Part shown: one piece after another, positions 3,943-30,266 of the stretch
Layout: each line of letters starts with the position of its first letter
How positions within the stretch are numbered: the first letter of the stretch is position 1
Source: Caldilineaceae bacterium
GTDB lineage: Bacteria > Chloroflexota > Anaerolineae > Caldilineales > Caldilineaceae
DNA length: 34,134 nt
Direction of reading: 5' to 3'
Assembly: GCA_023384455.1 (NCBI GenBank)
Contig: JAHDWH010000012.1
Span: 19,056-53,189 of the forward strand
The notes under the pieces: model-generated
What the model was told of the DNA's origin: nothing
Seen by the model: the letters and a program-made list of their open reading frames with translations, nothing else
The model's database searches: none
Made by a program: the position numbers and the translations under genes

Positions 3943-4054
3943 CTTCTTGTGTCGGTCTGGACGTTCACAATTCTCCTATGCGTCGCGGGAATCCTTTGCT
4001 ATACTGACGGCTCTGCTCACAATCGATCCGGGCAAAATGTGTATTGCGCAATTG

Positions 4055-4174
4055 GGACTTGTCAAAGAATAATTTCCCGTTTTGGTGCGTCGCACTGTCC
4101 AGATAAGGTTGCGGACTAGAGTCATTTCGTGGACAGTGCGACGCACCGGATGGAACTTATTTCTTGACAAGTCC
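4055..4174. repeat. ~120-bp MITE-like inverted-repeat element
   Basis: The ends GGACTTGTCAA (4055-4065) and TTGACAAGTCC (4164-4174) are exact reverse complements. Moving inward, the arms are imperfectly complementary and then become a perfect 18-bp pair: 4084-4101 against 4130-4147, both carrying the near-palindrome GTGCGTCGCAC. The 28-base centre is unpaired. No coding capacity is present. This is the layout of a non-autonomous miniature inverted-repeat element or a large REP-type hairpin. A related core, GTGCGACGCAC in both arms of a hairpin, recurs at 30180-30244. The outward-facing TTGACA in the right end (4164-4169) could serve as a -35 box for the gene at 4188. Confidence 0.7.
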
Positions 4175-4187
4175 TTGGGGCTGACCT

Positions 4188-5375: not shown

Positions 5376-6182
5376 TCAGGGCTTGGATACAATCTCTGCG
5401 GGATCGATACCCAATTCCTGCAACTTCGCGGCCAGTGCGTCTGCCCGCCGGCGTTCCTGCCCGGCTCGTTGACGCTCCTGTTCGGCCCGTTGGCGCTCCT
5501 GTTCGGCCCGTTGGCGCTCCTGTTCGGCCCGCTGACGTTCCTGGGCTTTAGCCTCCGAACCGGTGGAAAGGAGAACGCCGCTCTTGTCCACCCAGCGCAG
5601 CCAGTCGCCTACCATTCCGTTATAGACGCCCCGCCAGATCGTCACCCCCAGTTCAACCTCGGCCAGCCAGCGCTCTGTGCTTTCTATATACCGCGCGCCC
5701 TGACGGGTGAAGATGCGCAGCGGCTCCTCGCTGATCTCCCCTTCGTTGTCGTAGACGATATAATAGGCGACCCCCAGGCGAGCGTAGTCGAGGAGTTTGT
5801 TGCTCAGTTCGCCGCCCTTGCGGTTGGAGACAATTTCGACTACCACCTCTGGCGGTTTGCCGTAGAGCCAGAGAAAATAGCTGCGGTGCTCCTTGAGCAT
5901 CGGCTCGTCGGGCGGGGTGACATCCAGACTCAGCAGCAGATCGGGGACAAGGGGTGGCGTGAAATTGGTGGCATAGACGGCGACATTCGCCATCGCCACG
6001 AATGTGCGCCCGGCGCCTGGTCCGTCCCAAGAGGTGTAGAGAGTTTCGCGCAACAACGCCATCTGCCGCTCGGAAAAGAGATTGTCCACAGGCGTATCGT
6101 CCTCCGTGACCAGATGGGAAACATCAGGCGCTGGGATGACCAGTTCGTCATCAATGGGATCCAAAACAATTGTTCCGGCCAT
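5376..6182 (-). CDS. Uma2 family (DUF820) endonuclease-like protein with heptad-repeat tail
   Basis: 268 residues. The core matches the Uma2/DUF820 family, which has a PD-(D/E)xK restriction-endonuclease fold. VPDLLLSLDV (D81) supplies the first acidic residue, PPEVVVEIVS (E116) the second, followed by the helix with K129 (SNKLLDYARLGVAYYIVYD). The C-terminal 60 residues are a coiled coil built of near-identical heptads AEQERQR, encoded by four 21-bp tandem units around 5455-5541. This tail is common in Uma2 proteins of cyanobacteria and Chloroflexota, and the cellular role of the family is unknown. The ATG is preceded by GGAAGGAA. The gene converges tail-to-tail with the 4188 gene, six bases apart. 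Confidence 0.88.
   Translation of the reverse strand: MAGTIVLDPIDDELVIPAPDVSHLVTEDDTPVDNLFSERQMALLRETLYTSWDGPGAGRTFVAMANVAVYATNFTPPLVPDLLLSLDVTPPDEPMLKEHRSYFLWLYGKPPEVVVEIVSNRKGGELSNKLLDYARLGVAYYIVYDNEGEISEEPLRIFTRQGARYIESTERWLAEVELGVTIWRGVYNGMVGDWLRWVDKSGVLLSTGSEAKAQERQRAEQERQRAEQERQRAEQERQRAGQERRRADALAAKLQELGIDPAEIVSKP
5455..5541. repeat. 21-bp tandem repeat inside the Uma2 gene
   Basis: Four near-identical 21-bp units (core TTCGGCCCGTTGGCGCTCCTG) encode the AEQERQR heptads of the coiled-coil tail. The copy number can change by whole heptads without shifting the frame. Confidence 0.85.
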
Positions 6183-6316: not shown

Positions 6317-6416
6317 TAACTGTTCAGTCACCCCACCCTAACCCTCCCCATTCTAGGGAGGAAACTGGATCGACTCCTCGCCCACGGTGGGGGGGTTGGG
6401 TGGGGGTGAGCAGTTA
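6317..6416 (+). repeat. ~100-bp dispersed repeat, copy 1
   Basis: The element begins TAACTGTTCA and ends TGAGCAGTTA; the C-rich left arm (to about 6349) and the G-rich right arm (from about 6390) are roughly complementary. The middle contains CATTCTAGGGAGG and GGATCGACTCCTC. A second copy lies in opposite orientation at 29943-30039. It occupies most of the gap between two minus-strand genes and holds no gene. It looks like a miniature inverted-repeat element. Confidence 0.75.
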
Positions 6417-11110: not shown

Positions 11111-11148
11111 AAAGAAGTTCGACTTTTTCCGAAAAGTCGAACTTCTTT
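11111..11148. terminator. strong bidirectional terminator
   Basis: A perfect 17-bp stem (11111-11127 with 11132-11148) closes a four-base TCCG loop. A/T runs on both sides give U-rich tails in either direction. It lies between the convergent methyltransferase and rsmI and should stop both. Confidence 0.88.
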
Positions 11149-29908: not shown

Positions 29909-29942
29909 CTCCACCCCCGCAAAAGAAAGTTAATCTGAAACG

Positions 29943-30039
29943 TAACTGCTCACCCCCTCCCAACCTCCCAAAGTGGGGGAGGAGTCGATCCGCTTCCCTC
30001 CCTAGAATGGGAGGATAGGGTGGAGTGGCTGCACAGATA
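29943..30039 (-). repeat. ~100-bp dispersed repeat, copy 2
   Basis: The reverse complement of this stretch aligns with 6317-6416 over nearly its whole length. They share CATTCTAGGGAGG, GGATCGACTCCTC and the end GGGGGTGAGCAGTTA. It lies in a 350-bp gene-free gap together with the hairpin repeat at 30180. Confidence 0.75.
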
Positions 30040-30149
30040 CTCTGAAACAATTCACAAACTTACAGAAAACAATCACTATATTCCTATTATAGGCAATATA
30101 CGCGCCAAGCGGCATGGGAAAATAGGGTCAGAAAGCCGGTCTCTTGTCT

Positions 30150-30256
30150 TGCCCAGGCAGCCTGTCTCGGTTTCTACTCAGGTGCGACGCACTCGCCAGG
30201 AGGGGATTCTTGTACAAAGATTCTGTGGCGAGTGCGTCGCACCTAAGCCCTGGGCA
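30150..30256. repeat. hairpin element related to the repeat at 4055
   Basis: Arms 30180-30198 and 30226-30244 are a perfect 19-bp inverted repeat. Each arm contains the near-palindrome GTGCG[A/T]CGCAC also present in both arms of the 4055-4174 element. Outside them TGCCCAGG (30150-30157) pairs with CCTGGGCA (30249-30256). The loop holds the palindrome TTGTACAA. It ends ten bases from the kinase stop codon and may also act as its 3' hairpin. Confidence 0.6.
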
Positions 30257-30266
30257 GGTATCTCTC

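Follow-up and report, generated by a model that had tools for sequence, protein, structure and literature searches.

The two palindromic elements of the window (the whole stretch of 34,134 nucleotides that was analysed, from a Caldilineaceae bacterium) are very probably non-autonomous MITEs moved by DDE transposases, belonging to two families that have a central hairpin module in common, i.e. modular MITEs. This builds on copy number, ends, target-site duplications, empty sites, the common hairpin itself, and a second hairpin type of the same geometry that occurs in more than one kind of end. Since the two families make duplications of different lengths around one central hairpin, we read them as hairpin modules joined to different transposon ends, and this suggests an assembly of such elements from interchangeable parts. 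The features by which MITEs are recognised were found in both families: their members are short and without a coding gene (120 bp and ~93 bp), carry terminal inverted repeats, make duplications of fixed length and have unfilled sites (L041, L039 and L043 for the first family, here class a; L088/L274 for the second, class b). An earlier, sequence-only reading had proposed a dispersed MITE-like family, perhaps moved in trans. The dispersal and the anatomy hold and movement in trans is probable, but these are two families with different ends and duplications, rather than one with variable ends.

Within the genome (6.77 Mb in 448 contigs), the core palindrome GTGCGWCGCAC occurs 344 times exactly, compared to once for the reversed control pattern, and it forms 121 inverted pairs, which include a few overlapping pairs in composite clusters, compared to none in the control. 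The core is thus neither confined to two loci nor equally common outside inverted pairs, and the original observation of two loci with a common palindromic core is confirmed, both features being as described, with the same core in both arms of each. All four exact cores of the window belong to the pairs of the 4055-4174 element and the hairpin at 30180. When up to one mismatch is allowed, the window has five matches versus 0.77 expected, and five were reached in none of 100 shuffles. In a 935-kb sample of this genome (hereafter the sample), 17 exact cores are unpaired, 12 of them at contig ends, two beside runs of N and three in composite clusters.

The element at 4055-4174 (120 bp; no strand is assigned to this or the other features given below) is a class a MITE with GTCAAGAAATAA-type ends. 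A BLAST search with this copy finds ~40 copies in the genome, mostly with 92-97% identity over most of the element. Its ends are 87% complementary over 23 nt, and its central hairpin (4084-4147; palindrome, arm TGTCCA, loop, arm, palindrome; z -10.0 for the single-stranded DNA fold of the element) carries the core palindromes GTGCGTCGCAC at 4085-4095 and GTGCGACGCAC at 4136-4146, and has the perfect 18-bp inner inverted repeat (4084-4101/4130-4147) that had been pointed out before. Identical 3-bp flanks are present in 19 of the 23 copies with both flanks, compared to 2.1% at control offsets; the other four comprise three inverted triplets and one mismatch. These duplications are mostly TAA or TTA (mostly TNA), with ATA and ACA also found, and comparison of class a flanks places TTG at 4052-4054 and 4175-4177 around the window copy. 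The two ends of the family consensus read GGGCTTGTCAAAG and GGACTCGTCAAG. The GGACTTGTCAA ends previously noted are present in the window copy, but they are atypical of the family, and an exact search for GGACTTGTCAA leads to only 6 places.

Out of 19 class a sites tested for an empty counterpart elsewhere in the sample, three yielded one (L041, and both L039 and L043 within a REP palindrome), 14 were without a match, and the matches of the remaining two (L051 and L057) we took for ends of related repeats. In the case of L041, the flanks, once joined, align over the junction with a further repeat copy in L088. In relatives of the genus, flank matches for both window copies stop before the elements or fall on separate contigs. 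Class a copies are often located inside or beside other repeats, including REPs, GATTCC hairpins and tandem arrays with related elements (L031, L036, L039-L041, L043, L049-L051, L055-L058), and two were inserted inside copies of a CGCAAGCTGTTAGCTTGCG-type REP palindrome; such positions may indicate a preference for palindromic DNA. Downstream of the window copy, a 21-bp unit is repeated in tandem about five times at 5440-5544.

The hairpin at 30180-30244 had been described as having the same core as the 4055 element and different ends. This stands, but the true element is longer, with approximate boundaries at 30170-30262, and its ends are worn: the left end matches the family at 10 of 12 positions, the right end has decayed, and no duplication is recognisable. 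By family resemblance this copy would belong to class b, a family with IS66-type ends and 8-bp duplications that was defined from 31 loci. Its central hairpin (30181-30243; palindrome, arm TCGCCA, loop, arm, palindrome; fold z -6.9) contains the core palindromes GTGCGACGCAC at 30182-30192 and GTGCGTCGCAC at 30232-30242, and the arms (30177-30198/30226-30247) are 95% complementary over 22 nt. In this family, the hairpin lies between GTAACTACTCAGG and CCTGAGTAGTTAC, with 6 bp inserted on one of its sides, and the length is ~93 bp (most intact copies measure 92-94 bp). Twelve of the 31 loci have exact 8-bp duplications and 6-7 of 8 positions agree in five more; in controls, 8 of 8 was never reached, and 7 of 8 in 0.14%. 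Among the 19 loci without an exact duplication, some have runs of N, chimaeric sequence, or worn ends that leave the guessed boundary unreliable. Eighteen class b sites were tested for an empty counterpart and three gave matches, one of which is counted: the joined flanks of L088 align to L274 over 119 bp with five differences and a single copy of the 8 bp. The matches of L102 and L091 were not counted, as the former aligns over only 45 bp and the latter lies within simple repeats.

Two other repeats of the window deserve mention. A high-copy repeat of ~100 bp, with tens of copies in this genome at 81-92% identity, is located at 29941-30041 and, inverted, at 6347-6416. It starts with GTAACTGCTCACCCCC, which resembles an IS66-type end, and contains CCTCCCCCAC...GTGGGGGAGG, and it may represent a third hairpin-bearing family with IS66-type ends. 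The inverted repeat at 11111-11148 has perfect arms of 17 bp (AAAGAAGTTCGACTTTT/AAAAGTCGAACTTCTTT) and a loop of 4 nt, and a similar hairpin is present in L085.

Judged by sequence likeness, class b is best read as an IS66-mobilised MITE, because its ends and 8-bp duplication match those of IS66 elements of the bacterial family and of ISDge4, an ISBst12-group IS66 element observed transposing, which is described with ends GTGACTACTCAGCA/GTAACTGCTCAGCA and an 8-bp duplication (PMC12898284). While the GTNACTNCTCAG ends and the 8-bp duplications are alike, class b differs from the IS66 group in being without a transposase gene and in its twin-palindrome hairpin interior, which is absent from the 30 IS66 loci examined in the bacterial family; the exact core was found in none of these. 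The PF03050 profile has no match in the own genome, which leaves class b without an autonomous partner there, and it is present in 20 of 46 genomes of the bacterial family. Complete elements, 1.54-1.63 kb long, are present at seven of the 30 IS66 loci; they have exact 8-bp duplications and ends GTAACTACTAAGCC, GTAACTGTTCAGG or GTAACCGTTCAG, and L143 is from the same genus. In seven genomes of the genus, the GTAASYGTCAAGAAATAA end, which is related to class a, occurs at 40 places; the 30 loci examined are short elements or unpaired ends with no transposase gene, and among them no transposase-bearing element with GTCAAG ends was found. Likewise, a scan of the sample for inverted repeats 0.7-3.5 kb apart yielded no pair that we identified as a GTAAC- or GTCAAG-ended transposon. 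That no autonomous partner was found in the own genome speaks against the reading as MITEs moved in trans.

The module common to both families consists of an 11-bp palindrome, a pairing arm of 5-6 bp and a loop of ~27 nt, after which arm and palindrome are repeated in inverted orientation; in this genome the two palindromes begin 49-52 bp from each other. We also scanned the sample blindly for any palindrome of 11-14 bp that has an inverted copy at a distance of 36-79 bp, requiring an arm of 4 or more pairing nt, and obtained 61 hairpins: 47 with GTGCGWCGCAC, 12 with GATTCCSGGAATC, one with a shortened form of GATTCCSGGAATC, and one other. The spacing is 49-52 bp in 60 of these 61, and shuffled sequence gave no hairpins at all. 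Five helical turns as a general rule for this spacing was rejected, as it varies between 45 and 56 across lineages. The second type, the GATTCC hairpin (GATTCCSGGAATC), is found in 132-bp elements with GTAASYGTCAAGAAATAA ends, 12 of 20 of which have 3-bp duplications (control 1.1%), and at 21 distinct loci without GTCAAG ends, where it has several other flanks. In L281, an element with a GATTCC hairpin has GTAACTGTCCG ends and TAA on both sides.

We tallied hairpins against ends in the sample, excluding four at contig edges. For the TCGCC-arm hairpins (n = 25), IS66-type ends are present on both sides in 18 and on one side in six, and one is mixed. The TGTCC-arm hairpins (n = 20) have GTCAAG ends on both sides in 10 cases and on one side in five, a single IS66-type end in two, neither in two, and mixed ends in one. 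The remaining GTGCG hairpins, whose arms are of other kinds, number three: one is flanked by IS66-type ends on both sides, one on a single side, and one by neither type. Among 16 GATTCC hairpins, six have GTCAAG ends on both sides, seven have neither, two have one IS66-type end, and one has IS66-type ends on both sides by match alone. Random positions (n = 3,246) gave IS66-type ends on both sides 9 times and on one side 199 times, and GTCAAG ends on both sides 0 times and on one side 12 times. Therefore, GTGCG hairpins are found with two kinds of end, two hairpins share one kind of end, and GATTCC hairpins have several surroundings, so that no hairpin type is strictly bound to one type of end. 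Chimaeras with their junction at the core (L098, L102, L103, L127) were not used as evidence of recombination because, except for L103, they are close to contig ends and could be artefacts of assembly.

Could these be two ordinary MITE families without any exchange of modules, the core being either a subterminal site for transposase binding or alike by chance? In the simplest class b elements (L074) the 12-bp IS66 end is indeed followed directly by the core, which is where a binding site could be located. However, the core is also present inside a family with 3-bp duplications, it is missing from all of the IS66 loci mentioned above, and the same geometry recurs with the unrelated palindrome GATTCCSGGAATC, which together make this explanation unlikely.

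GTGCG pairs occur in 8 of 61 genomes, the own genome included, and GATTCC pairs in 7 of 61, six of which are of this genus. In a GTDB scan, at least 55 of the 74 matches listed have complementary W letters, and these come nearly all from Chloroflexota, Anaerolineae or Caldilineaceae records, or from bacterium RI_153. The same scan contains at least nine loci with GTAAC-like ends, in which at least 7 of 8 bases are duplicated and at least 6 of 9 end bases are paired. A spread to Streptomyces, Dactylosporangium, Chitinophagales, Equicola and Omnitrophota was rejected, since among the matches listed theirs are tandem repeats in direct orientation (W letters AA or TT), and so were Microcoleus and KSB1 as further hosts, where the cores of the listed matches are inverted and the arms pair over no more than 0-2 nt.

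In a set of 100 distinct hairpins, which are related sequences, 87% of cells are paired over the first five positions of the arms, compared to 61% with partners re-dealt (a maximum of 66% in 500 rounds). Thirteen different fully paired arms exist among them. This pairing of the arms fits a maintained fold-back. Template switching between arms is described as a process that can keep them alike without selection (PMC8604942), and by analogy the pairing seen here may be kept in this way, without any function.

A different origin of the hairpin would be that of a REPIN, where mobility resides in the hairpin, a RAYT (Y1) transposase acting on its single-stranded DNA, and transposon ends were added later. 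As in REPINs and GTAG-tagged REPs, we find an inverted palindrome pair that folds as a hairpin and is present in hundreds of copies; the Y1_Tnp profile has four matches in this genome, some hairpins have neither main end type, and GTAG repeats are known from Chloroflexi (PMC3733652). What the elements here do not share with REPINs are their target duplications, their defined terminal repeats, and the lack of a RAYT gene flanked by the core palindrome, and a GTAG tag beside the core is not required either. Target-site duplications are a mark of DDE transposases, and not of Y1 transposases acting on REPs. None of the Y1_Tnp genes is flanked by GTGCGWCGCAC pairs, other palindromes being found there instead: the RAYT genes in L108 (18036-19671), L081 (1056-1820) and L110 (8307-9876) are flanked by their own REP palindromes, GTGCGGTT...AACCGCAC, CGCAAGCTGTTAGCTTGCG and GTCGGACTGTTAGTCCGAC, respectively. 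The first of these, GTGCGGTT-KNN-AACCGCAC, has the outer letters GTGCG/CGCAC in common with the core, and a comparison of AGGTGCGGTTTGTAACCGCAC in L108 with the core AGGTGCGACGCAC looks as if the latter were the palindrome minus its inner part, a likeness that is possibly due to chance. Recognition by a REP-type transposase, as the sequence-only reading had suggested, was rejected because both families make target duplications (3 bp and 8 bp) and the RAYT genes adjoin other palindromes, and we regard the REPIN-like origin as highly unlikely.

By ORF-based gene calls, which are approximate, 24 of 28 class b hairpins lie between ORFs, and neighbouring genes are tandem in 12 cases, convergent in six and divergent in six, with three hairpins inside an ORF and one of undetermined context, so that there is no orientation bias relative to the background of 304:110:108. 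A structured RNA or transcription terminator that spread as a functional part is hardly credible, as the very stable folds (z -6.9 to -11.0 for four elements folded as single-stranded DNA) and the constant spacing within the genome are set against this background-like orientation, on which a role as regulator or terminator was rejected, and against Rfam, where no family reached its gathering score and permissive matches all fell below the cut-offs.

How, then, would modular MITEs come about? DDE transposases would act in trans on the ends of the elements and not on the core, for which the ends and duplications argue well, and class b would be moved by an IS66 transposase. The route that we favour would start from a hairpin adjoining a single transposon end: template switching within the hairpin might copy this neighbouring end, inverted, to the other side, and so create a MITE in one step. 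In this way one hairpin could, less certainly, come to lie between different ends, and new families could arise. The template-switch model leads one to expect that the hairpin is central, that one and the same hairpin occurs with different ends, that one kind of end surrounds different hairpins, and that some hairpins are without those ends, and all four are seen. These expectations are not specific to template switching, since the same patterns would result if MITEs recombined with each other or if a hairpin were captured. A more doubtful extension is that the hairpin, and not the transposon end, could be the long-lived unit, which would persist in Chloroflexota, repeatedly gain new transposase ends via template switching, pass between transposases and outlive its autonomous partners.

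MITEs, IS66 elements and REPINs are in themselves already known. The closest precedent for a conserved interior comes from coral CMITEs, the interior of which is described as conserved across families (PMC2872659). CMITEs are eukaryotic and described as piggyBac-related, whereas the elements here are bacterial, contain a hairpin, and have ends with different duplication lengths. In searches covering the openly licensed PubMed Central literature we recognised no description of these two families, of this hairpin or of a bacterial counterpart. The elements are numerous and many contig ends lie inside them, and as such they matter for the assembly of these genomes. Furthermore, they bear on the questions of how MITEs originate and of why the interior of a MITE is often unlike that of any autonomous element: the presence within one genome of the same hairpin with different ends, the same ends with different hairpins, and hairpins without the main ends provides a natural series in which the birth of MITEs can be tested.
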